This document shows positions 2,288 through 27,278 of a DNA stretch of 32,585 nucleotides, in pieces. Made by a program: the position numbers and the translations under genes. Numbering within the stretch: position 1 is the first letter of the stretch; every line of letters begins with the position of its first letter. Source of the stretch: a virus; the IMG/VR virus record IMGVR_UViG_3300034037_000023, positions 1 through 32,585 of that record; one strand, 5' to 3'. The notes beneath the pieces are model-generated. The model ran no database searches, was not told where the DNA came from, and worked only from the letters and a program-made list of their open reading frames with translations.

Positions 2288-4108
2288 ATGTCAAAACAAA
2301 TAAATTATTATAATAGAGATTTTCAATCAATACGTTCAGAACTTGTTGATTTCATTAGACAATATTATCCTGATATATTGAATGATTTTAACGATTCTTC
2401 TGTTGGTATGTTGTTTCTTGAATTAAATGCTGCGGTTGCAGATATGTTATCATTCCATACAGATAGAATGTTTCAAGAAACACAAATAGATTACGCAAAA
2501 GAAAAAAAATCATTGCTTTCAATTGCAAGAACATTTGGTGTAAAAATTCCTGGAAAAAGACCATCTGTTACTATTGCAGATTTTTCTGTTACTGTACCTG
2601 TTAATGGTGATAAATTTGATATAAGATATGCTCCTGTAATAAAAAGCGGGGCGCAGGTGTCTGGAAACGGTAAAATATTTGAAGTTTTAAATGATATTAA
2701 TTTTGCTTCACCTTTTACTACTGGTGGGATACCAAATAGATTAGTTATACCAAATTTTGATTCAAATGGAAATCTAATAAATTATACTTTAACCAAAAGA
2801 GAATTTATTGTAAATGGTGTAACTAAAATTTTTAAAAAAGTAATTACTTCTGAAGATGTTGTTCCATTTATGGAATTATTATTACCTGAAAAAGATGTAT
2901 TATCGGTAGAATCTGTTATTATAAAAAATGGGACTAACTTTAACACATTACCTTCATCAGATGAATTTTATGATGAAGATTTGAAATGGTATGAAGTTGA
3001 TTCGTTAGCTGAAAGTTTGGTATTTGTTGAAGATACTAACACCTCTTCTGGTTCTGAAGCTGGAATAAAAAATGGTACGTGGAAAAAAATAACAAAAAAA
3101 TTCATTACCGAATATACAGATAATGGATTTATGAAATTGATTTTTGGTGGGGGGAATGTTGATGTAAGCAATATGTGTGATTTTTATGATGATAAATCTT
3201 TAATTGATAAAATAGGCAATATTATAAATAACAAATCACTTGGGGAAATACCACCACCAAATAAAACAATTTTTGTTAAATATAGAGTTGGTGGTGGAAA
3301 ATCTTCAAACGTTGGTCCAAATACAATAAATTCTGTAGTAAGTGCTGATATTATTGTTAACGGACCAAATCAATCAGACAATAATTTAGTTAAGCGTTCA
3401 TTAAAAGTAAATAATCCAATTCCTGCAATTGGTGGTAAAGATGAAATGTCTCATGAAGAAATAAGAAATCTAATTAAATATAACTTTTCTTCTCAAAACA
3501 GATGTGTAACATTAAAAGACTATCTGGTAAGAATATCTTTAATGCCAGGTGAATTTGGTGTTCCGTTTAGAGTTAATGTTATTGAAGAACAAAATAAAAT
3601 TGCTGTTTATATTTTAACATTAAATTCAAGTGGTAAATTAAGCACAAAAATATCTAGCACAATTAAAGAAAATATTTCAAGATATTTATCAGAATTTAGA
3701 ATGATAAATGATTATGTGGTTGTGAAAAATGGTAAAGTAATAAATTTATCCTTTGAAATTGATTTGTTTATTGATAAAAATGTTCCACAAACTGAAATTA
3801 TTTCTAAAACAATAAATGAGGTGAAAAACTATTTTGATATAAATAAACATTATATGGGTGAAAACATATATATATCCCAACTTATTGAAAGAATAAATAA
3901 TATAAATGGGGTTTTAAATATTGTGGACATTAGAGCATTTAATAAAGTTGGTGAAGGGAAATATTCAATGGATGAAATTGCTCAACCATATATTGATGAA
4001 GAAAAAAAACAAATTGATATGTTGGGTGAATATACATTGTTTGGTGAACCTAATGCCATGTTTGAAATAAGATACCCAGAAATTGATATTAAAGTAAGAG
4101 TAAAATAA
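2288..4108 (+). CDS. gp6/Baseplate_J-like baseplate wedge protein
   Basis: The N-terminus has the typical opening of gp6-like wedge proteins: a tyrosine-rich start, YPDILNDFNDSSVG (about residues 27-40), then a helix with LELNAAVADMLSFHTDR, then KKSLLSIARTFGVKIPGKRPS. The C-terminal part has the Baseplate_J-type sequence LIERINNINGVLNIVDI (about 534-550). The length, 606 aa, is close to T4 gp6 (660 aa). In T4 this protein forms the ring of the baseplate that joins the wedges around the hub. It is the first gene of the long plus-strand structural block and is divergent from the gp25-like gene. In many contractile systems the gp25- and gp6-like genes are neighbours, which supports both calls. 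Confidence 0.9.
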   Translation: MSKQINYYNRDFQSIRSELVDFIRQYYPDILNDFNDSSVGMLFLELNAAVADMLSFHTDRMFQETQIDYAKEKKSLLSIARTFGVKIPGKRPSVTIADFSVTVPVNGDKFDIRYAPVIKSGAQVSGNGKIFEVLNDINFASPFTTGGIPNRLVIPNFDSNGNLINYTLTKREFIVNGVTKIFKKVITSEDVVPFMELLLPEKDVLSVESVIIKNGTNFNTLPSSDEFYDEDLKWYEVDSLAESLVFVEDTNTSSGSEAGIKNGTWKKITKKFITEYTDNGFMKLIFGGGNVDVSNMCDFYDDKSLIDKIGNIINNKSLGEIPPPNKTIFVKYRVGGGKSSNVGPNTINSVVSADIIVNGPNQSDNNLVKRSLKVNNPIPAIGGKDEMSHEEIRNLIKYNFSSQNRCVTLKDYLVRISLMPGEFGVPFRVNVIEEQNKIAVYILTLNSSGKLSTKISSTIKENISRYLSEFRMINDYVVVKNGKVINLSFEIDLFIDKNVPQTEIISKTINEVKNYFDINKHYMGENIYISQLIERINNINGVLNIVDIRAFNKVGEGKYSMDEIAQPYIDEEKKQIDMLGEYTLFGEPNAMFEIRYPEIDIKVRVK

Positions 4109-4128: not shown

Positions 4129-4392
4129 ATGGGATGTCAAAGCTGTAAAAGAAAGAAAAAAAATATAAATTCTAATTTGAATAATATTGATTTAATTGAT
4201 AAAAAAGAAAGTAAAATTAAATTTACTTATATGTTATTCATAAGAATATTATTATATTTAATTTTAACACCATTTTCTATAATAATATTCTTACCATTAT
4301 CAATCGGATTTATTTTTTATTCATTATTTGTTACTATTGTACTGAATGATGAGGTTAAATTTGATTTTTCACCATCTAAATTATTTGAATAA
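4129..4392 (+). CDS. Small cysteine-containing membrane protein
   Basis: This 87-aa protein starts MGCQSCKRKKK, a CxxC pair followed by a basic patch, then a polar linker rich in Asn and Asp. Two hydrophobic segments follow (about residues 34-55 and 57-72) and a short polar tail. It would be an inner-membrane protein if expressed alone. It lies 20 bases after the gp6-like gene and 11 bases before the 1335-aa gene, so it is co-transcribed with baseplate genes. I do not recognise a family. It might be a chaperone, a membrane-linked assembly factor or a small virion part. Confidence 0.6.
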   Translation: MGCQSCKRKKKNINSNLNNIDLIDKKESKIKFTYMLFIRILLYLILTPFSIIIFLPLSIGFIFYSLFVTIVLNDEVKFDFSPSKLFE

Positions 4393-4403: not shown

Positions 4404-7400
4404 ATGGACAAAACCATAAGAATAAGAACAACACCAAATAGTTTTAAAAGTTCTAGTATTAGAGTAAATATTGAACAAGATTTTGATTTTATACAAATTT
4501 TATCTCTTAATATTTCTCAAAATGAGGCTTATAGAAGGTTTTGTTCAGATTATGGTGTTGTAGTTGGTAGGGTGATAATGAATGGTGGTGTTGGTGTTCC
4601 TAATGCAAAAGTTTCTATATTTGTAAAGGCATCTGAATATGATGATTTGGATGATGAAATAAAAGAACTTTATCCATATGAAACCCCTTTAGATAAGAAT
4701 GATGATGGAATCATATATAATTTGTTACCAAAAAATCAAAAATTTGAATGTCATACTCCAATAGGCTCATTCCCCGATAAAAGAGAGATTTTGGATGTTG
4801 ATAAATATTCTGATGTATATTGTAAATATTATAAATATACTTCCGTAACAAATGAAGCTGGTGATTTTATGATATTTGGTGTTCCTGTAGGGGAACATAA
4901 TATTGTTTTTAACGTTGACATATCAGATATTGGAATTTATTCTCAAAGACCTTATGATTTAATAAGGGAAGGTTCACCAAAAGAAATTTTTGAAGGTACA
5001 ACTCAATTTAAAAGCTCAAAAGAATTATTGACATTACCTCAATTCAAATCAAATATAACTTCTGTAAATGTAATTCCTTTTTGGGGTGATAAATCAAATT
5101 GTGAAATCGGTATAACAAGAATTGATTTCGATACAAAAATAAAAATACAACCAAGTGCTTTATTTATTGGTTCTGCAATAACAGATAGTCATAAAAATTC
5201 AGTAAATAAAAGGTGCAGACCAAGAAAAAAAACAGGTTATATATGTGATATGACCACTACACCTGGAAGTATAAATATTTTAAGAAAAACTGTTGATGGT
5301 GGTGTTGAAGAAATATCAATAGATGGTGGAAGGGTTATAAATGATGATGGTGTTTGGGCTTTCCAAGTTCCAATGAATTTGGATTATATGGTAACAAATG
5401 AATTTGGTGAATTAGTTCCAAGTGAATCGCCGAATAAGGGAATACCTACAAGGGCAAAGGTTAGATTTAAAGTTGGTTTGGATATGGATGGTGGTGATGG
5501 TAGATTAAGAACAAGAGCATCTTATTTAGTTCCACATAATCCTAATACCATAAATGATGTTGATTACAATTTTAATGAAGAAACAAAAGAAGAAAATTTT
5601 AGAGATTTATATTGGAATAAAATATATACTGTTAAAAATTTTATACCAAGATTTCAAGCCACATCAGGTCATAATAAAAGAACTTTTATTGGTATAAAAG
5701 ATGTTGATGATTGTGTAGGAACAGCAAATCCATTTCCGTTTAATAGGATAGATTCAAAATTAAACCCATTGTTTTTAATACTTTGTATTATAATACAGAT
5801 AATATCATTTATTATTGTCTTTTTAAATTCTGTTATCTTTAAAATAATAAACTCTGTTTTTAAAGTTATAAATGATATATTAAAAGTAATTTGTAAAGTA
5901 ATATGGTTCATTGGTAAACTTGCTTGTTCAATTAAAAGTGGTAGTAAAAAATGCAATTGTAAAAAAAAGGCTTGTATAGGAGATGCTAATTGTGATTGTG
6001 GTGGTAACAATTCATGTGATTGTGATTGTAATAAAGATTATATTGATTATATAGGGTGTATTATAGTAAAATGTAATGATGAAACTTATGGTCCAGGATG
6101 TGAAAAGAGTTCGGATAAAATATCCCCATACAGAAATACAGACGACAAACCACAACATTATCCTGATGATGGACATCCAGGACATGGTGCAAATGAAACG
6201 TCTCCCAAAAAAGACGCTGGATGGGCATTTTGTTTATCAATACAATTAGCAGAAATTTTAGATGTGTGGAAATTTGATTTTTATAATGATTGGGTAAATG
6301 GGGTATTATATTTTCCTTTATTCAAGTATAAGAAAAATAAAAAGGGTAAAGAAAAGTTTTGTGAAAATAATTGTAGTGATTATGGTGATGGTGTAGATGG
6401 TAATAATGATAACATAGGAGATAATAAATGTAGAAATAATTATTTAGTTGACACTTGTACATCAGATGGTGCGGATTCAAATTTAAGCGATTTAATAAGA
6501 GATGGACTAATAAATAAACATAACGATACTTTATATTATTCACCAATATCACATAATGATAATTATAAATTATTAGCTACTGATTTAGTTATATTAGGTA
6601 GTATGTATGATTGTGATTGGCAAAATATATTAAAAATACATGACAGATTAAATATAACATCATATAAAACACCTGATTTATTAGATGAATATGATGGCAA
6701 TAAAGTTATAGTTAGTGGTTATGATTCAGCAAGCAATGATATAGCAGATTCCTTGTTTTTTAATTTAACATGTACAGGTATTGAAACAAATGCAAGAACC
6801 TGTGAGAATATTAAAAGAATTTGTGAAATTGGTGTAGGTCTTGATGAAGATAGAACAGACGAACCACCAAAATTAGGGTGTAATGGAAGTATGGGCATAG
6901 ATAGAGTTATTGATAATTGTGATGTTGATGATTTATTGATTAGAGATTATTTTGCATTACTTAATGAACCAAATTCAGGCATTGATTTATTAAACTTTAC
7001 TGATAGCAATAAACATGCATTGTTTAATTCTGTTGCTTATGAATTATACAGAGGTGTTAAAATAGGTATTATAAATCAACCATCAAATTCATTTTATTTT
7101 TATTTCGGTTTAAGACCAGGAAAAAGTGCATTGGATTTAATGAAAGAAAAATATTTTAATGATTGTAAGAGTCAAAATAAAACCAATATAACTGTTAATG
7201 CAGATATAAATCATGCAACTTCATCAACTTCTTGTGATGGTTCAATTTCATTAGAAATTATATATAGTTCAGGTTCTTATGATATTTCATGGGAAGGACC
7301 TGGTGGGTTTACATCAACTTCACAAAATATATCAAATTTATGTGAAGGTACTTATGTTTTAAAAATAATTACAAGTGATGGTAAGGTATTTACATATTCT

Positions 7401-8411
7401 TATTATATAAATGGTGGGCTACCATTATATTGTTTTTTAACTCCAGTTAATATAAGCAAACATGGTTTAAATGATGGAAAAATAATTGTTACAGATATTA
7501 GTGGTGGTGATGGTGGACCATATACATTAGAATTAAAAGATTATAATAATGGTAACATAATAAATACTACTACAGTTTCAAATAGTAATTCTTATACATT
7601 CACTAATTTACCAGCAGGAAATTATGAAGTAAATATTTATGATGTTAATAATAATTCTGTAAAATGTTCTCCAGCATTAGTTACAATAATAGAACCTGAT
7701 GAATTGATTATTGATGTCCAAAAAACAGATATAACGTGTTATGGAGCTAATGATGGTGAAATTTATTTAGATTATACAAGTGGTAATCCACCTATAACTT
7801 GGTCTATAACTGGACCAAATGGTTTTTCAAGTTCAAATACAAATTTATATGATTTAGAAGGTGGAACATATACAATAACAGCAACAGATTCTTTAAATCA
7901 AACAGTAACTCAAACAGTAAACATATCAGAACCACAACAAATTTCTCCTACTATTACATTTACAGATGTAACCTGTTATGGTAATAATGATGGTACAATA
8001 ACAATAAGTAATATAACAGGAGGAGTTCCACCATATACAATTGTGTTTGATTTTGGTCAAACCGAAACATTTAATGGAAGTCCTGTAGTATTTGATAATT
8101 TGGAACCAGGTGAATATGAAATTACAATAACAGATGATAATGGATGTGAAATCTATGCTACAATACCAATAAATGAACCTGGTCCAATATCTCCAGGTGT
8201 TACTACTAGTAGTGGAGATATAACAATATCCCCAAGTGGTGGACAAGCACCGTATGTGGTAAAAATATATGACAGTAGTAATAATCAAGTATATAGTAAA
8301 AACATTTATTCTGGTGGTAGTGATACATATACACCAAATTCAATCGGAACTTATACTGTAGAAGTAACTGATAATAACGGCTGTTCAGAAACAGTAAGTA
8401 TAATTGTATAA
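4404..8411 (+). CDS. Large tail/adhesin protein with carboxypeptidase-regulatory-like and SprB-like modules
   Basis: The protein (1335 aa) is modular. Near residues 48-70 and 150-175 it has the two halves of a carboxypeptidase-regulatory-like β-sandwich (GVVVGRVIMNGGVGVPNAKV; TNEAGDFMIFGVPVGEHNIV). Around 452-510 lies a strongly hydrophobic, helix-like stretch, followed by a dense cysteine patch (about 515-545) with CNC, CDC and CDCDC motifs. From about 925 to the end there are roughly five SprB-like modules. Modules 3 and 4 are the clearest, opening with TCYGANDG (C1112) and TCYGNNDG (C1191), then GGxPPYT, GxYxITxTD and ending in EP. SprB repeats are known from flavobacterial surface adhesins. 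The gene sits in the structural block, so a tail fibre or baseplate role is inferred. There is no obvious signal peptide. It overlaps the next gene by one base. Confidence 0.75.
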   Translation: MDKTIRIRTTPNSFKSSSIRVNIEQDFDFIQILSLNISQNEAYRRFCSDYGVVVGRVIMNGGVGVPNAKVSIFVKASEYDDLDDEIKELYPYETPLDKNDDGIIYNLLPKNQKFECHTPIGSFPDKREILDVDKYSDVYCKYYKYTSVTNEAGDFMIFGVPVGEHNIVFNVDISDIGIYSQRPYDLIREGSPKEIFEGTTQFKSSKELLTLPQFKSNITSVNVIPFWGDKSNCEIGITRIDFDTKIKIQPSALFIGSAITDSHKNSVNKRCRPRKKTGYICDMTTTPGSINILRKTVDGGVEEISIDGGRVINDDGVWAFQVPMNLDYMVTNEFGELVPSESPNKGIPTRAKVRFKVGLDMDGGDGRLRTRASYLVPHNPNTINDVDYNFNEETKEENFRDLYWNKIYTVKNFIPRFQATSGHNKRTFIGIKDVDDCVGTANPFPFNRIDSKLNPLFLILCIIIQIISFIIVFLNSVIFKIINSVFKVINDILKVICKVIWFIGKLACSIKSGSKKCNCKKKACIGDANCDCGGNNSCDCDCNKDYIDYIGCIIVKCNDETYGPGCEKSSDKISPYRNTDDKPQHYPDDGHPGHGANETSPKKDAGWAFCLSIQLAEILDVWKFDFYNDWVNGVLYFPLFKYKKNKKGKEKFCENNCSDYGDGVDGNNDNIGDNKCRNNYLVDTCTSDGADSNLSDLIRDGLINKHNDTLYYSPISHNDNYKLLATDLVILGSMYDCDWQNILKIHDRLNITSYKTPDLLDEYDGNKVIVSGYDSASNDIADSLFFNLTCTGIETNARTCENIKRICEIGVGLDEDRTDEPPKLGCNGSMGIDRVIDNCDVDDLLIRDYFALLNEPNSGIDLLNFTDSNKHALFNSVAYELYRGVKIGIINQPSNSFYFYFGLRPGKSALDLMKEKYFNDCKSQNKTNITVNADINHATSSTSCDGSISLEIIYSSGSYDISWEGPGGFTSTSQNISNLCEGTYVLKIITSDGKVFTYSYYINGGLPLYCFLTPVNISKHGLNDGKIIVTDISGGDGGPYTLELKDYNNGNIINTTTVSNSNSYTFTNLPAGNYEVNIYDVNNNSVKCSPALVTIIEPDELIIDVQKTDITCYGANDGEIYLDYTSGNPPITWSITGPNGFSSSNTNLYDLEGGTYTITATDSLNQTVTQTVNISEPQQISPTITFTDVTCYGNNDGTITISNITGGVPPYTIVFDFGQTETFNGSPVVFDNLEPGEYEITITDDNGCEIYATIPINEPGPISPGVTTSSGDITISPSGGQAPYVVKIYDSSNNQVYSKNIYSGGSDTYTPNSIGTYTVEVTDNNGCSETVSIIV

Positions 8412-10114
8412 TGGAAAATAAATTTAAATACATATTTGAAAGTTCAAAATCAAAGGAAAAAAGTGATATAAGCAAAAAGAACAAAATTATATTATCTTCA
8501 AAATCAAAATTATTACCATATTCTGAAATTAATAAAATAATAAGTCAAAGTGAACAATTTAATAAAGAAAGACAAGAATCATATAAATATAGGTTTACTT
8601 TTGATGTAACAACAATATTTTCAAATTGTTTAATGAACATTACTGGTGATAATAGTTTTGAGACTTTTATGGTTAATCCCTATTTTAGGGATAGGTCATA
8701 CCCACCAAATACAGTTGATTTTGATGAGGAAGAAGATATTACTTATAAAGAAGCAATAGAACAAAATTTAAAAGAAGTTGATGGGTGGTTTGGTTATCTA
8801 GACCCAAACATAGGATCAACAGATGGTTGTAAATGGAACGACATGTATCCATCTAGAAATCATTTTGAAATAAATCCAACAAATTGGGATTTGGCTATCA
8901 CATATCCCGATTATAACAAAACAATTGATTTAATTGATGGTGGAATAATAATTATTGAATCAACACAATTAGAGATAGGTGGGAAAACAGTATATCAATT
9001 TGCAACGCCAATAAAACATAATTTATTACCTGGAGATACTGTGAGATTGAAAAATTTACTTGATAATAGTAAAGATGGTATTTATACTGTTTTTAAAATA
9101 GGAAATGAAAAAAATGAACTTAGTGATTATTTCTTTTCAATTGAGATGGAAGGTGGTGAAATATCAAACAACTCAAGAATGGTTAGAATTTTTAGAGGTG
9201 AGGAATCAACATATTATGCCAGAATGTTTAAAAAAATACCAATAGTTAACGGATATGTTGATACTGATAAATTTTTAATAAATAAATTATCTTTTTCAAA
9301 AAATATTTTTAATGATGTAAATTATCATTTTTTATTAAATTATGATATTGATTTAGCTAATATAAGAGATAATTTAAACAGACCAATTTCAGAATTATAT
9401 TTTACATTCATAAAAAAAAGAAGTAATTTTAATGATGGTAATGGTGATATGTTTACGGAAATAAAATCTGGTATTGAAGCACCATATATACCATCAATGA
9501 TAAATTTTCCAAATATAATACCTGATATACATAGAATACATAATGGTTCATCACCAATTCCACATGTGTCATTAGAAACAAATGTAGATATAAGTAACAC
9601 ACACTTTTTTGGTGATATTGTAGAATATAACAGGTTTGAGGTTAAAGAAACTGTTTTGGCTGAAGTTATGCATAGATTTAACACAAATAATAGAATACTT
9701 GGTGGAACTATTACTGATCTTACAGGTGCTGAAAGCTCAATTACTGTATCACCAAGATATGAAGGATATTATTATAAACCTCATCATTTAATTAAAATTA
9801 GAGAATTTTCAAATTATGTGGAACAAGGTGATGAATCTACATATGGAATACCTGATTATGCTGAGGACTTGGGAGATGGTAGATGGTTATGGAGAGATTT
9901 ATTAGATTTAGGTATATCTGACACTAGCAATAAACCATTAGATTACCCATTTATAAATGGAAGGCATTATATACATAAAAAAATATGTTTATTATTAAAA
10001 AGACAAGACCCTAATGGATTATATGGGTTATATTCAGATGAGTTTCCATCTGATCCAAGAGGATATGTATTAAGTGATAAATTTAAAGTAAATAAAAGCA
10101 GTGAAATATGTTAA
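8411..10114 (+). CDS. Hypothetical virion structural protein
   Basis: I do not recognise this 567-aa protein. The first 70 residues are lysine- and serine-rich and look disordered or helical. From about residue 60 it is a globular sequence rich in aromatic residues, Asp and Asn, consistent with β-structure, with no signal peptide or membrane segment. The start codon overlaps the stop of the preceding gene (TAATG), and its own end overlaps the next gene by 7 bases, so it is translated with its tail-gene neighbours. By position it could be a baseplate wedge or connector protein. That role is inference only. Confidence 0.6.
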   Translation: MENKFKYIFESSKSKEKSDISKKNKIILSSKSKLLPYSEINKIISQSEQFNKERQESYKYRFTFDVTTIFSNCLMNITGDNSFETFMVNPYFRDRSYPPNTVDFDEEEDITYKEAIEQNLKEVDGWFGYLDPNIGSTDGCKWNDMYPSRNHFEINPTNWDLAITYPDYNKTIDLIDGGIIIIESTQLEIGGKTVYQFATPIKHNLLPGDTVRLKNLLDNSKDGIYTVFKIGNEKNELSDYFFSIEMEGGEISNNSRMVRIFRGEESTYYARMFKKIPIVNGYVDTDKFLINKLSFSKNIFNDVNYHFLLNYDIDLANIRDNLNRPISELYFTFIKKRSNFNDGNGDMFTEIKSGIEAPYIPSMINFPNIIPDIHRIHNGSSPIPHVSLETNVDISNTHFFGDIVEYNRFEVKETVLAEVMHRFNTNNRILGGTITDLTGAESSITVSPRYEGYYYKPHHLIKIREFSNYVEQGDESTYGIPDYAEDLGDGRWLWRDLLDLGISDTSNKPLDYPFINGRHYIHKKICLLLKRQDPNGLYGLYSDEFPSDPRGYVLSDKFKVNKSSEIC

Positions 10115-10932
10115 ATAGATATAAATTAAATTTAAATAAATTAAAAAGCGATTATATAAACTTTAAAATACCAATAATTCAAAATGAAGATTGGTATGGT
10201 CAAGCTGAAATATTGGAAAAAGATTTTATTTCAGTAGAAGTTGAAAAAGCAATAAATCCTATTGTTGATTATGAAAAATATAGGTTTATACCAACAAATA
10301 ATAATGGTGATGTAGATAAAATATCGTATTATTTAAATTTATTAGACGATAATGGTAATTTAATAAACCACACCACATATGACATTGAAGGGTTTACATA
10401 TGGGGATTTAAGATATAATAAAAACAAATTTAAACGTTCTTTTTTAAGATTAATGTTTTTTGATAGTGATGATGTAACAAATCAAAACTTTTTATTTCAG
10501 ACAATAATATATTGCAGATTATATGATTCAGATATTATTAAACCACAGCAAGGAGTATTGTCATCAGCATTGGATTCAAATAAACCAAAACCATTGCAAC
10601 AAATACCAATAAGATTTATTGTTGGTGATTCAAGTAAAAATAGTGATTTATTATCTGATGGATATTATATTTTATATAATAAAAAAGATTTACCATTGGA
10701 TTTATTTATGAGAGCAACATGGAATAATGCATCAAATGGTAAAACAAAAAATTTATCTACAAGTAATACGAAACTTGAAATAAATGAAATAAACAAGTCA
10801 TTATTTATGAAATTTACTTTAAAAGAAGATAATAATAAATTATATTATTTAATTGATGAAACATATTCAAATAATATAACATATTCCAATAATGAATATA
10901 TTATTGAATTATACGAAGTTCAAGTTAAATAA
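10108..10932 (+). CDS. Hypothetical virion structural protein
   Basis: The 274-aa product has no family that I can name. It reads as a soluble, mostly β-rich protein with no membrane segment or signal peptide. A line such as ISYYLNLLDDNGNLINHTTY suggests paired strands. It overlaps the preceding gene by 7 bases and shares one base with the next start (TAATG). This places it in a translationally coupled set of tail genes, probably as a baseplate or adaptor component. Confidence 0.55.
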   Translation: MLNRYKLNLNKLKSDYINFKIPIIQNEDWYGQAEILEKDFISVEVEKAINPIVDYEKYRFIPTNNNGDVDKISYYLNLLDDNGNLINHTTYDIEGFTYGDLRYNKNKFKRSFLRLMFFDSDDVTNQNFLFQTIIYCRLYDSDIIKPQQGVLSSALDSNKPKPLQQIPIRFIVGDSSKNSDLLSDGYYILYNKKDLPLDLFMRATWNNASNGKTKNLSTSNTKLEINEINKSLFMKFTLKEDNNKLYYLIDETYSNNITYSNNEYIIELYEVQVK

Positions 10933-11738
10933 TGGATATAAAACGTTATAAAATATCAATAGAAGATTTAATCACTCGTGAGGGTGGTGGATTTTATGGT
11001 TCAATTGATAAAGAATATGTAACATTTAAAATTTTATTAACACAAAATATAAATGATGTTGGTTATTATTCTCATGATAATTATTTAACAACACAAGTAA
11101 ATTATGATGTTTTAATTGATAAGTTATCTCAAAGTGGTATTACATTTGGATTTTTTAACAATCCAATATATGTTTTTAATTATAGTGGTTTTACAGGTGA
11201 TACTAGAATAGATTTTTCAACGCCGCAAAAATATTTTGCTGAAGGTGATGAAATAGCATTAACAAGTGAGAGTAGATTATCTGAAGTAAGAACAATAAAA
11301 TCAAATTCACCATATATTGTTGGTTTCGATGTTAAAAAAGAAGTTTATTATAATTATAAAAATGATTTAATAAACGGTGTAAATAGAGTTATTTCAATAA
11401 GTGGTGATGTAATAGAATATGTTATTGATGCCAATGATGATTCAAATATCGGAACTGACCAACAAAAAGGTGGGTTTAGACTGGTAAAACTTGATGATGG
11501 AACAACAATAATAAGATACAAATCAGAAGGTTGGAACGATACAAATACAGATATTAAAGCAATTTTTAAAGAAGAATATTTAATGAATATAAGTGAAGAA
11601 CCAGAAGTTAAAAGTGATGTATTTATAGATAGAGGTGAGAATAGTGTATTTGAATATCACTTATCATTAGTAGATGTTAAGAGTTTAGAACATTTAGAAT
11701 TATTTGGTAACGGTTTTTTTAATATAAATAAAACATAA
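10932..11738 (+). CDS. Hypothetical virion structural protein
   Basis: This 268-aa protein is unrecognised. It starts MDIKRYKISIEDLITREGGG and continues with alternating hydrophobic and polar residues and many Gly, Asn and Asp turns, as expected of a β-rich virion protein. No catalytic motif, signal peptide or membrane segment is visible. The start overlaps the preceding stop by one base, and the next gene begins only 4 bases after its stop. The function is inferred only from its place between gp6-like and fibre-like genes. Confidence 0.55.
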   Translation: MDIKRYKISIEDLITREGGGFYGSIDKEYVTFKILLTQNINDVGYYSHDNYLTTQVNYDVLIDKLSQSGITFGFFNNPIYVFNYSGFTGDTRIDFSTPQKYFAEGDEIALTSESRLSEVRTIKSNSPYIVGFDVKKEVYYNYKNDLINGVNRVISISGDVIEYVIDANDDSNIGTDQQKGGFRLVKLDDGTTIIRYKSEGWNDTNTDIKAIFKEEYLMNISEEPEVKSDVFIDRGENSVFEYHLSLVDVKSLEHLELFGNGFFNINKT

Positions 11739-11742
11739 AAAT

Positions 11743-12639
11743 ATGGCAACAGGAACATTTGGAACAGTAAGACCAGCAGACGTTGAGTTAACAGACGTTG
11801 AGGTTATTGTATATTATACACCATCAAGAACCTCTACAGAAAGTCCTACAATAACAAAATTATCTGGGGATCAAGTTTTATCAAAAATAGAAAACCCCAA
11901 TGGAAATGGTATTGAATTAATGGGAGGTTTATATGATTTGAAAATACCAACCACAATATTTAATGCTATTGGAATTTATAATATCTACATAAGACCAGCA
12001 GAAATAAGAACAAGAATTGTTGATTGTGGAGTATTAGCAACATCTCCTAATGTTAAAGGTCTAGTATTTGATTTAAATGAAATACCAAATAATTTTGTGA
12101 ATAAATTCCAAAATGGTAATTTGGTTGGATTTAGAATAGAATACCTTAATGGAGAAGGATTAAAAATACCAAATCTTTTTAGAATTGTTACAAGTAATAA
12201 TAAATGTGAACCAGTAAATCAAAATTTAACAAATAGCAACCAAAAAGCAATAAGGTATAGATTTAATGATAGTTCTTCATTGGTGTTTTGTACTTTAACA
12301 CCTTCTTCTACAAGTAATGTAAAGCCAAATGCAGTTCCTTTTATTGGTAATCCTAATCAAGATGTTATAATAACAAATACATATTTTAACCCATTACTTC
12401 TTGAAGTTGAAATAGTTGAACATGATATTGAAACATTGGCATATGCCTTATATGGAAATCAAACTAAATCTCTTGAAGATGGAATATATACAATATATAA
12501 TTTTGACAATGAGATTTATAGACAATATAATTTATATGAAATAAAAGATGAATTTACAGGAAAACCATTGTTTGAAGTTAAAGAACAAAAATTAGATATT
12601 GACTTTAATAAAGGTTTTGATGATATTACAAATGTTTAA
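11743..12639 (+). CDS. Hypothetical virion structural protein
   Basis: A 298-aa protein starting MATGTFGTVRPADVELTDVE. The N-terminal half looks like an Ig-like or fibre-type β-domain (strands around EVIVYYTP and YNIYIRP). The C-terminal part is more acidic and ends near KGFDDITNV. No enzyme motif, signal peptide or hydrophobic segment is seen. It lies 4 bases after one structural gene and 6 bases before the 1098-aa protein. It could be a tail-sheath-end, wedge or fibre-adaptor protein, but I cannot decide between these. Confidence 0.55.
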   Translation: MATGTFGTVRPADVELTDVEVIVYYTPSRTSTESPTITKLSGDQVLSKIENPNGNGIELMGGLYDLKIPTTIFNAIGIYNIYIRPAEIRTRIVDCGVLATSPNVKGLVFDLNEIPNNFVNKFQNGNLVGFRIEYLNGEGLKIPNLFRIVTSNNKCEPVNQNLTNSNQKAIRYRFNDSSSLVFCTLTPSSTSNVKPNAVPFIGNPNQDVIITNTYFNPLLLEVEIVEHDIETLAYALYGNQTKSLEDGIYTIYNFDNEIYRQYNLYEIKDEFTGKPLFEVKEQKLDIDFNKGFDDITNV

Positions 12640-12645
12640 TAGGTA

Positions 12646-15600
12646 ATGGGAAAAGTAAAAATAGTAGGATACGCACAAAGAGTTTTTTTTGATGATGGTA
12701 TAGAATATAGAAATTTTTCTGACGATTTAGTCGGAAACCAAATATCATCAAAAGAAAGCCAATCTTTGTTTACTTTTGGAAATTTTTTGATTGTCCCATC
12801 ACCTACTGAAAAGACTGAAAAACAATATCTTACAAGGAAATTTAGCAGTTTTGTAACTTTAAGTGATATTAATTTAGATGAGAAGTCAATTGAGATAGTA
12901 AATAATGAATTTTCTTCAGTAAAATTAAATTACGATAATTCAATATTAACAAATTATTCTTATTTCAGCTCAATGGCTGAAATGGTAAGAGTTTCATTGG
13001 AAAATATAATAATAAATTATCCTGCATCTTTATATATAAAAAACACCAATGATTTTACTAATCAAACATATCAAACAATAGAAGATTATAATTATGATAT
13101 AACTACTAATAAATCTACTTTTAAAATAAATGTCGGGGCAATATCAAATAAATTTTTAATAAGTTATTTGGAAAATGGCAATCCATTAGCTAAGTATAAT
13201 GAAAATAATGAATTAAGAAATCTTAAATTATCATATGGTAAATTTGTCGTAGATTATAGTGGTAAAACATATAAAATTCTTTCGTTTACAGGATCAAGTG
13301 ATGCATCATCTGGTTATGTATATTTTGAGGTTGAAGGAAATATTAATGATGGAAATATAAATAATACCTTAAACTATCATATAAGACCAAATGATGTGGA
13401 AATAGATAAATTTTTCATGTCATTAAATGATTTTGAAGCTACCTTATTAAATAGGCATACAATTCCAAAATATACAGCAGAATTTAATATATTAAAAAGG
13501 TCAAATGATGGTAGAATAATTAGAAGTAAAGAAAAATTAACTTGGAATACAAGTGATGGGTATAATATTGACTATGATTCTCCTGAATATATTTCATATG
13601 TTAAAAAGTTAATGGAGATTTCAGAAAATTATGATTCATTTAAAACAGATTTAATAAAAAGATTTTTAGTACCAAAATCTATAACTGAATTTGATAGTAT
13701 AAGAACTTGTGATGGTGAAGTAATAATTTCAGAAAGTCAAAAAATAAATAAATTATTAAACATTTATGGTGTTGAATTTGATAAAATAAAAAGATATATT
13801 GATTCCATATCTTATGCTTATACTGTTACATATAATAAAAAAGATAATGTTCCCGATAAATTTATAAAAAACATATCAAAAGCTCTTGGATTTTATAATA
13901 TTAACTTTTCAAATGAAAATAATTTATTAAATTATTTGTTTAATAGAGAAGAACCTGAATTTTCTGGACATTCGGTTGGATATACTTTAAAAGAAAAGGA
14001 AATTGAATTTTGGAGAAGATTAATATTAAATAGTAGTTGGTTGTGGAAATCAAAAGGAACAAGAAAAGCAATTGATTTTATATTAGATTTTTTTGGGATA
14101 CCAAGAGGGTTAATTGAGTTTAACGAATATGTATATAAAGCCAAAAATAAAATAGATATTGATACTTTTAAAAAAGTTTTATCTGAATTAAAATTAAACG
14201 ATGATTTAAATGATTATTTTGTTGATGATGAAGGTTACCCTAAATTAAAATCAGATTCAATTGACGATTATTTCCAAAATAATGGTTTATGGTATAGAGA
14301 AACTGCTGGAGATAATACAAATTTTAATATACTTGAAGGTAATAACCCCCATGTGGGAGAATATGATGGTGGTTATAAATATTTTGAAAAATTGAGATGT
14401 TTAATAAATGATTTTTCTCCAGTAATGATAAAAAATGAGGATATTGAAGAATATTCTCAAAATATTTTTGTAAATTATAATAGTGGATATGTAAATGATA
14501 CTTCATCAACAGATGTATATTTAGATGTAGTTAATACAGATGGTGTTGATTTATCTGATGTTGTGTTGGTAAGCGGTGAAATAATAGATGATCCGAAGCC
14601 AACTGTGGAAACAACGGATTGTGGGTGTGAAACTGGTTCAATAGACAGGTCTATTAAAATAGATGTTGTTACAAAAAAAGAAGATATAAGTGAAGGTGTA
14701 AATGATTGTCCATATACTGGTTTCACGTTTGATTCAAATGGTTATGTAATATTTAATTTATATGATGGTACAAACACAACTTTTATATCAAATCCACAAT
14801 GTTGTGAAGTTTTGGGATTTACATATTTTGCTGAAAGTGATACTTCTTGTTGGTGGGATGAAAATATGATACCTACTGGACCTTGTAGTGGATTATCTCC
14901 ATCATCAATTGATGAAAAAGGTTTTGTTATTTGGGTTGATGAAAACAACACAAATACATATATAGTTGATAGTAGTGAATGTTGTTCTAAAAATGGATAT
15001 TTAACATTTGTTGATAATGGTCAAACATATTGTTATGTTGGTTGTGATTCTTATAAACCAGTATCCGTAGATAAAGAAACAGGTGTGGTTACGTTTGTTG
15101 ATCCTTTAGGTAACACAACAATATATATTAGTAGTGAATGTTGTTCTTATGGTGGATATAGTTCTGCTAGTGATGACAATGGCAATTATTGTATAGATAC
15201 TTCAACATTAACAGGTTCAAAATGTGGAACATTAGTACCAAGTGATGTAAGTAGCGATGGAATTATATTATTTATGGATACTACAAATAAAGCAACAACA
15301 AATTATGTTATTAATGCTGAATGTTGTGGAGAGTATGGATTTGATGTTGATTATACTCAAAAAGCAGGAATAAGATGTAAATTATCTTGTAATCAATATT
15401 CTGTTGACAGTGTAGATCCGAATACTGGTATTGTAACTTTTGTAGATATATATAAAAATAGTTATGATTCAATTCCTTCGGAATGTTGTACAGCTAAAGG
15501 TTATTCAGTAACAAATGTAAAAGGAGTTGATTATTGTGTAGACGATACTGTTGTTGTTAATCAAGATGGAGATGGGAGCGGAGAACCACCACCATCCTGT

Positions 15601-15953: not shown

Positions 15954-18800
15954 ATGGCAAATGATTGTAAAGACATATTTGGAAATATTATAGAAACAGT
16001 ATCTTTTGGTGAAGATGGGATTGTTTATGGAATTGATTCAGATGGCAACAATAATCCCATTGGTAAAGAATGTTGTAATTCATTAAATAAAAATTGGAAT
16101 GAAGCTACTGGTAGGTGTTATTGGTCTGATGTTTCAAATAATTTTCCATATAAAATAAATGTAAACTCTACATACAACGATGGTTCTTTGTTCGATGTTG
16201 ATGAAAATGAAGATTGTTATTTGGAAATTTCTTTTGATTTTATGGTTTCTATAGATTGTAATAATATTTTGAATTATGATAATTGTTTAGAGGCTTTAAA
16301 TGATATAAAAATATCATCAACAGTAGATTTATATAGAGAACCAAATGAAGGGGAAACACCTATAGGAAATTATGTAGTAGAAGAAGTATATGAAGAAGAA
16401 ATAATAAATACTGGTATTTTTTCAGAATATATTATAGACAATTGTGAAACTGGAATATTATTAACAGGAGATACTAATTGTATTAAGAATGTAAAATCAT
16501 GTATAAAAAATGAATTAGGTGAAAATTGTAAATATTTAGAGGATTGTACATTAAATTCTGAATGGATTAGTAAAACATTTAAAATTTCAGATAAAGGAAT
16601 AATTGATAAAATTAAAAATAATAAAATAAAATTATCATTAAAAGTTTATAATTCAAATATTGATATTTCCATTTTAATAGATAAAGTTGTTATTGAAAAA
16701 AAATGCTTAGTAGATAATAGTACTACAAATTTTATAAGTAAATGTATTGGGTTTGAATTAGAAAAGACTGTTGATAACAAAAAATCTTGGGTAGATGTTG
16801 ATATTAAAACAATAAGAGATTATGATTTTATAAATAGAGAGACAAAATATACATTAAACAATGAGAAACAAATTCTAAACAGTAAAGAGATTGATTTGGT
16901 TTTATGTGGGGCTAATGGTATTGAATATGATTTATATTGTTATGTTTTGGAAAATAATGATTTAATCGGTTGTTCATTGGGATATAAGCCTGGATGTATT
17001 GTTGGTGAATTATCCCCTGAAAAAACAGAATGTTTATATATTGAATCAACAGACCCGACATTGAATGGGACCCCATATCTTGCAGTTGATGGTGATAAAT
17101 ATTCACAATATAATTATTATGGTGCAGTTTTTTTAGGCAATATAACAGAAAGACCAAAACCATTAAAATTTAGTGGATATACAGGTCAAGCAGGTTCTTA
17201 TTCAGGAACTAATTTTGTGGTTGATGGAAATCTTGAAGTTGTAAATGCTGTTGTTGGTGGACCTGGAACTGGTAGTACTTATTATGGACCACCCACAATA
17301 AGAAATTCCTTATGGGGAGATGGGTTATCAGTTAATCACGGTAGATTAAACGCTGCTGGAATAAAAGCACAAGGAAACCCAACTCAAGAATGGATTGGAT
17401 TTTCTTTTTGTATTGATTTACCAAAAACTGGTGTATATAATATTGCATTGTCTGCGGATGATAGATTTAGGTTAAAAATAAATGGTGAATTGGTATTTGA
17501 TTCATTACCACATTCAAGATTAGCACCATATACATCACCAAACTTATCACTTTTTATGCAACATGTTTGGATATTTGAATATTATCTTAAAAGTGGTAAG
17601 AATATTATTGAAATGGAATATTATAATGTAACTTCTATTGCTGGAATGTGTGCTGAAATATATGATGCTACAATAGATCAATTATCTGGAATGACAAGCG
17701 AATCAGAGTTATCTGGAGTAACAGTATTTAGCACAAAAGACTATATAAATGATTATTTTCAGTTAGGTAGTGTTAACGGATATTCTTGTCCTACTGGTTA
17801 TTCATTGGACACTTGTGATCCGAATGATTTTAAATGTACAAAAATAATAAGAGATGATGTTGATTTAATAGCATCTGATTGTAATGGATGTAATGAAGGA
17901 TATTGTGGAGATTCTGGGATTGATTTATCCAAATTATTGGAATTTGAAATTAATGATATAACTAATTTTTATGAATTTAAAGAAAACATAATATCCAATT
18001 TAATTGATGTTAGGAATAGGAAAACAATAAAATCATATCCAACCATTAAATTGTTATATGAAAGATATTTAAATAGTTTTTCTGGAACTGTGGAAAGTAA
18101 TGCATTTACTTATGAAAGTATTGAAAAAATTATTGATAAAATTAATAATAATTGGATTGATTTAGTTGAGGAAGTAATGCCTTCCACTGCAATATGGAAC
18201 TCTGTAATAAAATATAGAAACGGATTTTTTGATTCACCTAAATTTAATTATAAAAAATATACAATTTTTACATGTGAAGAAAGTGATTATGTAGAATATC
18301 CAAGTAGTTTAACAGGTGTTACTACTGGTGTTACCACATATGTTTATGATGGAAAAATTATAGATGTTTGTGATGAAGAAAAAGAAATACCAAGCATATG
18401 TGAAGAAATAAACATTAAACAATTTAATGTTGGTTCTGAATTTATCGGAAAAATTAGAATATTGAAAAATGGTGAAGGGGTTTTAAATGAATGCGATTTA
18501 TTAATATCTGATTATAAAATTAATTCAGATATATCAAATGGTAGCATTGATTTAACACCAACATATGTCGGAGGTACAGCACCATATTCATTTAATTGGT
18601 CAATAAATTCAAAAACAGGAAACTTTAGTGATTGGGAAATTGTAAGTGGCACTGAAAATAATGAAACTGTTACTATTAGTGGAACATCATTTACTGAAAT
18701 AACTCAATCAGATTCTATTGAAATAGAAGTAACTGTTACAGATACCAACAATTGTACATCTAATAAAATAATAACTATTGATTCAAATACACAAATATAA
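15954..18800 (+). CDS. Tail fibre/adhesin-like protein with Cys-Cys repeat, PA14-like region and SprB-like end
   Basis: The 948-aa product begins with one more copy of the Cys-Cys repeat of the previous gene (C5, C40-C41, C55). The middle (about residues 400-585) resembles a PA14-type carbohydrate-binding β-barrel: a long glycine-rich lead-in, then GVYNIALSADDRFRLKINGE near 485-505 and LKSGKNIIEMEYYN near 542-555. The last 100 residues look like a PKD or SprB-like module (GGTAPYSFNWSI). It has many cysteines overall. No signal peptide is present. The gene lies between two structural genes and its stop overlaps the next start by one base. I infer a receptor-binding or fibre protein, with PA14 likeness judged by eye only. 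Confidence 0.65.
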   Translation: MANDCKDIFGNIIETVSFGEDGIVYGIDSDGNNNPIGKECCNSLNKNWNEATGRCYWSDVSNNFPYKINVNSTYNDGSLFDVDENEDCYLEISFDFMVSIDCNNILNYDNCLEALNDIKISSTVDLYREPNEGETPIGNYVVEEVYEEEIINTGIFSEYIIDNCETGILLTGDTNCIKNVKSCIKNELGENCKYLEDCTLNSEWISKTFKISDKGIIDKIKNNKIKLSLKVYNSNIDISILIDKVVIEKKCLVDNSTTNFISKCIGFELEKTVDNKKSWVDVDIKTIRDYDFINRETKYTLNNEKQILNSKEIDLVLCGANGIEYDLYCYVLENNDLIGCSLGYKPGCIVGELSPEKTECLYIESTDPTLNGTPYLAVDGDKYSQYNYYGAVFLGNITERPKPLKFSGYTGQAGSYSGTNFVVDGNLEVVNAVVGGPGTGSTYYGPPTIRNSLWGDGLSVNHGRLNAAGIKAQGNPTQEWIGFSFCIDLPKTGVYNIALSADDRFRLKINGELVFDSLPHSRLAPYTSPNLSLFMQHVWIFEYYLKSGKNIIEMEYYNVTSIAGMCAEIYDATIDQLSGMTSESELSGVTVFSTKDYINDYFQLGSVNGYSCPTGYSLDTCDPNDFKCTKIIRDDVDLIASDCNGCNEGYCGDSGIDLSKLLEFEINDITNFYEFKENIISNLIDVRNRKTIKSYPTIKLLYERYLNSFSGTVESNAFTYESIEKIIDKINNNWIDLVEEVMPSTAIWNSVIKYRNGFFDSPKFNYKKYTIFTCEESDYVEYPSSLTGVTTGVTTYVYDGKIIDVCDEEKEIPSICEEINIKQFNVGSEFIGKIRILKNGEGVLNECDLLISDYKINSDISNGSIDLTPTYVGGTAPYSFNWSINSKTGNFSDWEIVSGTENNETVTISGTSFTEITQSDSIEIEVTVTDTNNCTSNKIITIDSNTQI

Positions 18801-23087: not shown

Positions 23088-24278
23088 ATGGGATTTATAA
23101 CAGAACCACCTAAAACAATTGTTACAAGACTTACCTCATATGGTAGAGATTTTTTGTTAAGTAATACAATTAATGATATTAAAAAATTTGCAGTATCTGA
23201 TGAAGGAATTGATTATTCATCAGATTTAGTATTACCTAATGGGTATGTCCCATCAATATCTGGAAAATTAGATTTTGTTGGTAATATAAGCAATAATTCA
23301 GCTTATGATTATAAGATACCCAAAAGTATTTTAAAATATAAAGATGATAAATATTATCAAGAATTAAATGAAGAAGATATAAAAATATCTCAAACAAACA
23401 AAAAAATACCTACACAAACATTATCAAATTCAGATTTTTCTTTTTTATCAATTGACAGAACAAATACTTCAAACCAATATATTGGTATTTTACAATATTT
23501 AAATTTTCCATTGACAGATAATCAAAAAAGTTATTATATATTAGATTATAAACGTGGTGGTTATTATAATACAGCATTAGAATTTTTGAATGTTGATAAT
23601 GTTATTGTAATATCTATAGATGATAGTAAGTTTGGAAATATTATATCGGGTAGTGAAATTAAATTAGAATTATTTGGAAATTTAAATACGTATACATTAT
23701 ATGGGACACTTCAAAACAACCTTACCAGACGTAAATTATTAGACAATAAATTATATGACGATTCTAACAATGTTGTTAATGCTTTAGGTGAATATAAAAT
23801 TTTATTATTTTCAGATGAAATTCAACCACCAAACAATGATCCTACAAAATCATGGGGAGATGGATATGGCAAAATATATCCATACTCAAAACATGGTAAA
23901 CCATTATATAATTATATAGATGTTCCAAATTCAGGAATTGTTAGAGATAAACCTGTAGGATATGTGGATTTATTAAGCGGTTTGGTTGTTATAACAGACC
24001 AGACAATTGTTAGCGATTTAAATTTATCAAGTACATCTCATAATGGAGTATTAACATCTTATGAATCTGCTGTTGAATGCATTATACCGATAAGAATAGA
24101 ACAAAATTCTTTTAATACCTCATTAAATCCAACATATAATGAAAATGAATATACTTATATAACTTCAATATATTTGTTGGATGAAAAAGATAATGTAATT
24201 GCAGTTGGGAGAGTTAGTGAACCAATTAAAAAAACAAAACTTGACTTTATTTATTTTACTATAAAACTGGTTCTATGA
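23088..24278 (+). CDS. Tail fibre-like protein, paralogue of the preceding gene
   Basis: The 396-aa protein is a shorter relative of its upstream neighbour. The N-terminus has TRLTSYGRDFLLSN and KKFAVSDEGIDYS, matching the T.LT..GR / aiGDs.I.Y start. The C-terminus has ITSIYLLDEKDNVIAVGRVS, matching the other's EIGIYDDEQNLVLLGKTS region. The middle is unrelated or strongly diverged. In the start motif the GDS of the longer protein reads SDE here. It overlaps the next gene by four bases (ATGA). It is probably a second short fibre or a partner in the same fibre complex. Confidence 0.65.
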   Translation: MGFITEPPKTIVTRLTSYGRDFLLSNTINDIKKFAVSDEGIDYSSDLVLPNGYVPSISGKLDFVGNISNNSAYDYKIPKSILKYKDDKYYQELNEEDIKISQTNKKIPTQTLSNSDFSFLSIDRTNTSNQYIGILQYLNFPLTDNQKSYYILDYKRGGYYNTALEFLNVDNVIVISIDDSKFGNIISGSEIKLELFGNLNTYTLYGTLQNNLTRRKLLDNKLYDDSNNVVNALGEYKILLFSDEIQPPNNDPTKSWGDGYGKIYPYSKHGKPLYNYIDVPNSGIVRDKPVGYVDLLSGLVVITDQTIVSDLNLSSTSHNGVLTSYESAVECIIPIRIEQNSFNTSLNPTYNENEYTYITSIYLLDEKDNVIAVGRVSEPIKKTKLDFIYFTIKLVL

Positions 24279-25324
24279 TTAGAATTTTTATAATTCAATT
24301 ATTATTATTTATATCCATTTATGGTTTTTCTCAAAATGTGGTATGTTCAAGTCCAACAATATATATTAAGAATAAAGGCATAGATTTTAACAATTCATTA
24401 GCATCTCAAGGTAACAACCTGTCATCATCAGACAATGATTATAATTGTATAGTATTAAATAAAAAGGAAAAGATAGATGGTTATTTTGTTGGATTTAATT
24501 TTTCAATCCCAAATAATGCAATCATAACAAACATAGATATATTAATAGAAGGTTATTGGTTATTAAATAATGGTTGTAAAAAATCAGAAATACGATTATA
24601 TAATAATGGTATTAATGGAATAAAAGAAAGTGGTTGTTCAATAATTGGAAATAATGGTATTGATGATACTACAATTTATACTGATAATTCACTTTCATTG
24701 ACACCTTCTGATGTAAATGATTCAAATTTTGGTTTAAAAGTTAAATTTGAATCAAATTTAAATAATAATGTATTATGTATAGATTATATTGAAATATGTA
24801 TTACATATGACTTTCCATTACCAACAAAAATATTGGAAAAAGAAATTTATGATAATGGCGATTATTTAACATTATATTTTTCAACATCAGATGAAAGTTC
24901 AATAGAAAAATATTACATATATAAATTTATAAATGGTTTAGTTAATTATGGGACAATAACGCCAAAAAAACGAACATTAAATAAATATTATTTTAATGAT
25001 TATAATATAAAAAACGGTTTAAATTATTATGTTTTATATGAAAAAGATGTTAATGGTGATATTAATAAATTAACAACATTTAAATTTAATAAAAAAGATA
25101 ATGATGATGTTATTTTTAATATAAAAAAAAAGAACTCATTTGTTGAAATTACAACCAATAATGATGTTAATTACATTCTTTATGTTTATGATATTAGCGG
25201 TAAATTAATTATAAAATCAAATATAAACATAGATAAATTTACATTTAAACTTAATGTTGGTTTGTATATATTCACATTTATATATGATAATAAAATAATC
25301 ACATTTAAAGAAGTTATTTATTAA
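24275..25324 (+). CDS. Exported protein with type IX secretion (T9SS) C-terminal sorting domain
   Basis: The 349-aa protein begins with a good signal peptide: a basic start (MIR), a hydrophobic core, and a probable cut after GFS before Q20. Residues about 35-180 form a β-rich domain with LTPSDVNDSNFGLKVKFES and IDYIEICITY. The last 70-80 residues match a T9SS type-A sorting domain in pattern: VEITTNNDVNYILYVYD, ISGKLI, then GLYIFTF and a final strand ending EVIY. In Bacteroidota such tails direct proteins across the outer membrane through the PorV/SprA machinery. The start overlaps the upstream fibre gene by four bases, so it belongs to the phage structural operon. It may be displayed on the infected cell, perhaps to block receptors, or form part of the virion. 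The sorting tail was judged by eye. Confidence 0.8.
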   Translation: MIRIFIIQLLLFISIYGFSQNVVCSSPTIYIKNKGIDFNNSLASQGNNLSSSDNDYNCIVLNKKEKIDGYFVGFNFSIPNNAIITNIDILIEGYWLLNNGCKKSEIRLYNNGINGIKESGCSIIGNNGIDDTTIYTDNSLSLTPSDVNDSNFGLKVKFESNLNNNVLCIDYIEICITYDFPLPTKILEKEIYDNGDYLTLYFSTSDESSIEKYYIYKFINGLVNYGTITPKKRTLNKYYFNDYNIKNGLNYYVLYEKDVNGDINKLTTFKFNKKDNDDVIFNIKKKNSFVEITTNNDVNYILYVYDISGKLIIKSNINIDKFTFKLNVGLYIFTFIYDNKIITFKEVIY

Positions 25325-25970: not shown

Positions 25971-26100
25971 TGTGAACTACCCACCCACGCCAGAGGCGAT
26001 GGGTTGGGCTTCAGGAGTCAACACTCCCACCAACGTGGGCAGTTCGTCCTGATTTTTCCTATCCGTTCCAGATAAGATATTTTTTAAGGCAAAAGATTTT
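25971..26100 (-). ncRNA. Probable ωRNA (reRNA) at the tnpB 3' end
   Basis: In TnpB systems the guide RNA comes from the 3' end of tnpB and the element's right end. Here that stretch holds the right-end hairpin (25980-26008) plus two short perfect stems, GGAGT/ACTCC (26014-26027) and CCCAC/GTGGG (26026-26039), both with CAAC loops. The two share bases and cannot form together. The guide would be the flanking minus-strand sequence just beyond 25971, which starts with a run of T and then AATTCC. The 5' boundary is a guess. Confidence 0.5.
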
Positions 26101-27149: not shown

Positions 27150-27229
27150 ATATTATTAAATACGTACAAATATACAAAAAGTTGCTTTCATTTTAAAGTT
27201 TTTTTATTTTTTCTGTAAAATGCCGTTCA

Positions 27230-27278
27230 ACATATTGTAAAAGTTTCCGTCTTCGGGTAAAAAACTTCCACAATATGT
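27230..27278 (+). promoter_or_regulatory. Long inverted repeat that buries the tnpA start codon
   Basis: ACATATTGT (27230-27238) pairs with ACAATATGT (27270-27278), and inside it AAGTTT (27241-27246) pairs with AAACTT (27262-27267), separated by a 2x2 internal loop. A small CCG/CGG stem can form in the apical part. The tnpA ATG (27275-27277) lies in the outer stem. Translation would be blocked unless the stem opens, as is known for IS200 tnpA, whose mRNA leader hides the ribosome site. Confidence 0.7.

Follow-up and report, generated by a model that had tools for sequence, protein, structure and literature searches.

The IMG/VR virus record IMGVR_UViG_3300034037_000023, an AT-rich stretch of 32,585 bases that was analysed over its full length and is called the window below, contains on its plus strand one uninterrupted open reading frame (ORF, 4404-8411) for a 1335-aa protein that ends in five tandem modules of the kind found in SprB, the gliding adhesin of Flavobacterium johnsoniae. 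We consider it probable that these modules form an outward-facing adhesive array on a protein of the phage tail base, and the whole arrangement suggests that borrowed adhesin parts may serve the phage for holding on to its host. The recognition of gliding Bacteroidota by large phages is little known, and a modular, conserved and fast-diverging array of this kind constitutes a concrete candidate, one that spans an uncultured clade with 211 core relatives counted in IMG/VR.

A SprB-type array at the end of a large phage protein

The array occupies residues 929-1335 (nucleotides 7188-8408) and consists of five units of 72-92 residues each, in agreement with a preliminary description of this DNA in which about five SprB-like modules had been noticed at the end of the gene. 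The gene is composed as follows.

4404..8411, plus strand: 1335-aa baseplate-block protein, with a conserved core of about 928 aa and a 407-aa SprB-type tail
4404..7187, plus strand: conserved core, residues 1-928 (alignment of 56 other distinct homologues, 46-57% identity; AlphaFold model with a predicted local distance difference test score, pLDDT, of 86.6)
5766..5936, plus strand: predicted hydrophobic helix, residues 455-511 (Kyte-Doolittle and core model)
7188..7421, plus strand: module 1, residues 929-1006; degenerate, clusters with the phage modules of position 1
7422..7697, plus strand: module 2, residues 1007-1098, closing IIEP, origin ambiguous
7698..7943, plus strand: module 3, residues 1099-1180, with TCYGANDG; clusters with the phage modules of position 3; above the PF13573 cut-off at 7722-7820
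7944..8192, plus strand: module 4, residues 1181-1263, TCYGNNDG and GGVPPYT, the most SprB-like; PF13573 at 44.9 bits at 7950-8042
8193..8408, plus strand: module 5, residues 1264-1335, C-terminal, degenerate

The motifs named in the preliminary description are all present, if more sparsely than in every unit: TCYGxNDG occurs in modules 3 and 4 only, GGxPPYT in module 4 alone (as GGVPPYT), and EP closes only modules 2, 3 and 4. A strand of the GxYxxxxxD type is found in modules 2-5 and, in a looser form, in module 1. The predicted relationship to SprB was confirmed by a hidden Markov model search of the whole protein against Pfam, in which PF13573 (SprB) was the best family with 59.1 bits (E 3.1e-16) in three stretches, the curated cut-off being 28 bits. 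A six-frame search with the same family found two stretches over the cut-off (7950-8042 and 7722-7820) and one below it (8205-8258), and no match in any of 14 control genomes. When the tail was searched alone, SprB (E 3.9e-17) came ahead of Y_Y_Y (2.9e-9), SdrD_B (7.7e-9) and a PKD-like family (1.3e-3). Judged by sequence, the modules thus belong to the SprB repeat family and not to a generic PKD or immunoglobulin (Ig) family, the assignment that had been named beforehand as speaking against a link to SprB.

The protein has the module sequence family, the tandem layout and the EP-closed units in common with the SprB adhesin of F. johnsoniae; in contrast to the latter, it is fused to a phage core and possesses only five modules. 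No Sec signal peptide was found in it, the N-terminus being devoid of a hydrophobic leader by eye, and no sorting domain of the type 9 secretion system (T9SS) exceeded its cut-off (TIGR04183 at 17.9 bits against a cut-off of 23; TIGR04131 not listed). Since both a signal peptide and a T9SS domain over cut-off are missing, the 1335-aa protein is not a secreted SprB-type adhesin.

An AlphaFold model of the tail, calculated on an alignment of 52 tails, shows five beta-sandwiches with a mean pLDDT of 94.5; the sequences of modules 1 and 5 are degenerate, yet both are modelled as beta-sandwiches as well. The nearest solved structures are those of grappling hook protein A (GhpA) from Aureispira sp., which take ranks 1, 2, 4 and 5 in Foldseek (E 5.5e-14) and rank 1 in VIA-align (Z 13.0, root-mean-square deviation 8.4 A, 362 aligned residues, 16% identity). 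Fibronectin fragments come next in VIA-align with Z near 12, hence the Z gap between GhpA and other Ig-like chains is small. GhpA of Aureispira sp. CCB-QB1 (PDB 9flw, 9flv and others) is likewise a chain of Ig-like modules, but it is a bacterial (Bacteroidota) protein of thousands of residues and shares 15-19% identity with the tail.

Gene order, recurrence and origin of the array

The preliminary description spoke of a large virion gene. A place of its product in the virion is suggested by the neighbouring genes. Upstream lie a gp6-like baseplate wedge gene and then an 87-aa membrane-like ORF, and genes for proteins of 567, 274, 268, 298, 1098 and 948 aa follow downstream in the same direction. 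The neighbours to which we refer below are these.

2288..4108, plus strand: gp6-like baseplate wedge protein (PHROG 6 / 219)
4129..4392, plus strand: 87-aa small membrane-like protein between wedge and core
8411..10114, plus strand: 567-aa partner gene directly downstream of 4404-8411
15954..18800, plus strand: 948-aa protein of the same block, with a weak SprB-like C-terminal stretch at 18534-18602 (20.8 bits in hmmscan, below the cut-off of 28)
24275..25324, plus strand: 349-aa protein whose N-terminus resembles a signal peptide; T9SS type A sorting domain at 24.0 bits (TIGR04183, cut-off 23)

The same order recurs in the relatives. In all 75 loci of sufficient length (75/75) a gp6-like wedge lies upstream, a small ORF containing a hydrophobic segment is inserted between wedge and core in 75/75 loci, and a homologue of the 567-aa partner follows in 60/60. 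Examples of the small ORF begin with a Cys-rich motif (MGCQSCK, MGCNCK and similar). This gene neighbourhood supports a tail-base role, which the 1335-aa protein probably has.

The relatives were obtained by a profile search of IMG/VR, from which the best 80 of the 211 stretches encoding a core relative were fetched; the contigs concerned reach 362 kb. They yielded 89 ORFs, 19 of which run off the 3' end, and the 70 complete ones correspond to 61 distinct homologues. A SprB-type tail is carried by 57 of these 61. After five identical or near-identical tails had been left out, 52 were scanned and PF13573 was matched in 50 of them. A scan in which the tail of L020 served as a single-protein query found the contig of L020 only. 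In 19 IMG/VR records, one being a duplicate contig of the window and the rest relatives, the SprB matches listed fall mostly in the ORF of this gene; four records lack such a match, three of them (L007, L019 and L061) having cores without a tail and the fourth (L079) a tail in which that search found no PF13573. The duplicate is the 64,152-base contig IMGVR_UViG_3300034039_000011, on which the gene at 4404-8411 and the 349-aa gene are found with 100% identity. Membership in the bS21-encoding Bacteroidetes phages, as described in excerpts of PMC9723584, was considered and rejected: a search of 20 records, which are partly fragments, found no ribosomal S21.

The origin of the modules was studied by a comparison of 178 modules from phages and 281 from loci of Bacteroidota; a module entered the counts when 55 or more of its columns were filled, and other-phage matches of at least 85% identity were left aside. 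Most phage modules (159 of 178) are nearer another phage module than any bacterial one, and for 165 of the 178 the best match in another phage stands at the same position of the tail. This positional orthology argues for an old phage array and not for a recent capture. For a tree and for tests against module models, the set was thinned to 132 phage modules (five of them from the window), 159 bacterial modules and 10 modules of LR756502. The phylogeny of viral and host repeats gave a divided answer, in a poorly resolved tree: modules 1 and 3 of the window group with the phage modules that stand at the same position, and for modules 2, 4 and 5 the nearest rows are bacterial. Mimicry by capture, as proposed in the preliminary description, is therefore not upheld, since most modules are closest to same-position phage modules and two of the window's five group with phage. 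A fair statement of these sequence comparisons would be an old phage array of which the distal half, in the window, is closest to bacterial SprB, with an ambiguous source. Moreover, core identity medians of 0.63 and 0.53 are accompanied by module medians of 0.38-0.44 and 0.33-0.37, respectively. The modules diverge faster than the core, as is expected of a surface-contact part.

Possible roles of the array

We propose that the carrier is probably a large contractile-tailed phage infecting Bacteroidota, in which the conserved core would be built into the tail base and the 407-residue tail would project as a chain of five Ig-like modules and touch the host envelope, either first or as a secondary contact. 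Recruited, probably long ago, from the pool of surface-adhesin modules of Bacteroidota, the array has been inherited by position within the phage clade and diverges faster than the core. Its ligand would more likely be a surface glycan or a capsule-like layer than SprB itself.

Several observations weigh against a tail-base adhesin. In the core model, residues 455-511 form one predicted helix of 57 residues, and this stretch is strongly hydrophobic throughout the family (19-residue Kyte-Doolittle maximum of at least 2.26 in 57/57 distinct cores); baseplate proteins do not usually contain a conserved hydrophobic helix of this kind, which would be compatible with a function in a membrane. By sequence, no relative of the core was found in the PDB, and Foldseek and VIA-align gave no clear PDB relative either, the best rows covering parts of the core only, all with Z < 8. 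A whole-length structural match was found in the BFVD model of A0A8S5LA66 from Myoviridae sp. ctPuP5 (E 1e-84, TM 0.73, 31% identity), a phage protein that is named 'uncharacterized protein'. Core relatives were found neither in the bacterial genome contigs of a collection with one genome for each of 84,980 species nor among deposited phages, where only the SprB part was matched, in LR756502, and no virion proteome was found for the clade. Furthermore, in Flavobacterium phage immuto no core homologue follows the related wedge. Finally, four of the 61 distinct homologues (L007, L018, L028 and L061) end at the core, hence some phages can do without the array; the core alignment includes three of them, for which three separate changes are needed on the core tree.

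The tail-less homologues would also suit a generic Ig-like spacer or decoration, of the Hoc or T5 type, with weak or non-specific stickiness instead of host recognition. This explanation, which we regard as possible though doubtful, draws on the sequence profile of the tails, whose best PDB matches are phage decoration proteins (5lxk, E 2e-6; 8zvi, E 9e-6) and not GhpA, and on matches of the 1335-aa protein to Hoc-like head decoration in PHROG (E 4e-4 and 9e-4). Such decoration proteins have an Ig-like fold on the phage particle in common with the array, but the matches are weak and the proteins concerned belong to the head, whereas the array sits on a protein of the baseplate block, and PF13573 scores far above every generic Ig or PKD family. 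The hydrophobic helix, for its part, might anchor a non-virion protein in the host envelope, where the SprB modules would be exposed during infection and might, for example, block superinfection. The very hydrophobic stretch in every core, the single predicted helix and the small membrane-like ORF adjacent in 75/75 loci would be in line with such a protein; the lack of a signal peptide and the invariant place within the baseplate block speak against it, and we consider it very improbable. About as improbable is a recent capture of the end of a host adhesin by this particular phage. Module 4 does score 81.0 bits against the model of bacterial modules (bacterial median 69.4, upper quartile 78.1; phage medians 43-49), and in the tree its nearest rows, like those of modules 2 and 5, are bacterial; modules 1 and 3, however, side with the phage modules, a smaller tree has only 2 of 116 inner branches starred, and no module of the window exceeds 44% identity to a bacterial one. 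The sister phages L016 and L020 likewise carry a module where the window has module 4. The lean of the distal modules towards the bacterial model was dropped as evidence, because the held-out phage position V3 behaved alike (11/42 phage-leaning), which makes most of the bacterial-leaning scores uninformative.

The preliminary description had the modules engage the gliding surface, through SprB filaments or components of the T9SS, and saw host contact built around that surface together with the T9SS-type protein encoded downstream. To this specific interaction we assign a low probability. Its gliding part found some support in a survey of 118 sampled Bacteroidota genomes, in which SprB modules were counted at E 1e-8 (weaker SprB matches being left uncounted) and GldJ matches at 1e-30. 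SprB modules were present in 22 genomes, a GldJ match in 28 (13 of them over the GldJ cut-off) and SprA, the T9SS translocon, in 91. GldJ is matched in each of the 22 genomes that contain SprB (Fisher p 9e-19), and SprB occurs in 0/63 genomes that have SprA and lack a GldJ match; strong SprB modules therefore track gliding-type genomes and not the T9SS as such. Lineage confounds this association, and some of the GldJ matches are partial; if only matches over the GldJ cut-off are counted, SprB is found in 12/13 genomes against 10/105. For the phage array the tie to gliding is indirect. Phage adsorption has been connected with gliding proteins in flavobacteria: excerpts of the respective papers describe the receptors of F. 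columnare phages as likely part of the gliding machinery, receptor information being missing (PMC7345892), and SprB and RemA as possible phage receptors (PMC13288928). Binding of SprB modules to one another is without support. The joint system with the 349-aa gene is unsupported too, because the T9SS match of that gene is weak (24.0 bits against 23) and the gene is not conserved, being found, among the 20 records searched, only on the window's duplicate contig and in none of the relatives. In sum, the parts of the earlier proposal that found support are the assignment to the SprB family, the place in a conserved baseplate block, the recurrence of the tail (SprB matches in 50/52) and the 22/22 association of SprB with GldJ; capture and the joint T9SS system are not supported.

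A faint hint of the host comes from a transposase. The window contains at 25977-27676 an IS200/IS605-type element with a TnpA (Y1_Tnp, E 3e-33) and, by sequence, a TnpB-like ORF on the minus strand; GC is higher around it (0.33 at 26001-27000). At E <= 1e-120 this IS605 TnpB was matched in 1/247 genomes of the order to which a genome titled Bacteroidales belongs, with 71% identity, and in 0/249 and 0/250 genomes of two other orders.

SprB modules in other phage genes and comparable arrays

A scan of IMG/VR with a profile of the modules, of which the best 80 of 102 matches were fetched, led to 74 distinct loci. According to crude N-terminal patterns, 8 of them belong to this gene, 35 to a second large ORF family, 7 to a third one, 10 to ORFs with a leader peptide and 14 to others. 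SprB was confirmed by Pfam in 7/8 ORFs sampled from the scan, PHROG 26672 ('virion structural protein') was matched by 4/6 such ORFs scanned, and in 28/74 loci SprB lies in an unrelated ORF adjoining a homologue of a gene of the window's baseplate block. Several large phage genes thus contain SprB modules. In the second family (35 loci, L141-L192 and L206), the N-terminus M.R.F...SGT..GPY.IYYD is conserved, and SprB modules are found together with cadherin modules in some members.

Another arrangement was seen in LR756502.1, a phage record of 642 kb. Its ORF at 8834-13846 (locus L014) encodes 1670 aa; the N-terminus resembles a leader, PF13573 is matched in 13 stretches, and PKD as well as a sorting domain of T9SS type B (50.1 bits against a cut-off of 35) are present. 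This is the predicted architecture of a complete SprB-type adhesin encoded by a huge phage. A leader and a type B domain over cut-off were likewise observed in L133 (5077-7275; LR745206.1, 635 kb), L135 (4038-6734; 385 kb) and L203 (3829-7446; 281 kb), all three found by their similarity to SprB-module proteins, and L138 combines SprB and PKD_6 with a type A domain. Putative phage-encoded T9SS surface proteins thus recur. An ambitious reading, which we put forward as speculation and think rather unlikely, would take SprB modules as an adhesive alphabet common to Bacteroidota phages and their gliding hosts: in one clade, a baseplate protein with a membrane-inserting helix of 57 residues would both dock on the gliding surface layer and breach the membrane, and other large phages would export SprB-module proteins via the host T9SS and thereby remodel the cell surface.

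Cultured flavobacterial phages were considered as carriers of the modules, and this was rejected: the tblastn matches in Polaribacter phage P12002S and in Tenacibaculum phage JQ showed no Pfam SprB at E 0.01, and most other tblastn matches listed concern the cadherin part of the query and not SprB. A literature search on SprB repeats and phages found, judging by titles and the starts of abstracts, no paper about SprB repeats in phage proteins, and a term search of the paper on jug phages (PMC12363816) gave no mention of SprB or Ig-like. Databases already label some phage proteins 'SprB repeat', therefore the SprB module in phages is not new as an annotation.

The BACON arrays of other phages lie on a different carrier protein in a different phage clade, and BACON is a different module family from SprB. 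The arrangement is nevertheless of the same kind, that is, tandem surface modules of the host phylum on a tail-associated phage protein, the tail association being indicated in the window by gene neighbourhood. A study on crAss-like phages describes Bacteroidota-associated BACON modules in tandem in a tail-associated protein, and phage copies that are partly distinct from the bacterial ones, as are the window's modules (PMC6949934).

Two further observations concern the surroundings of the baseplate block. Just upstream of it, 222-1766 encodes a glycosyltransferase-like protein (Glyco_tranf_2_5, E 9e-25). Repeated Cys-rich units (ECC...GY, by eye) are found in the C-terminal part of the protein encoded at 12646-15942 and also at the start of the next protein.

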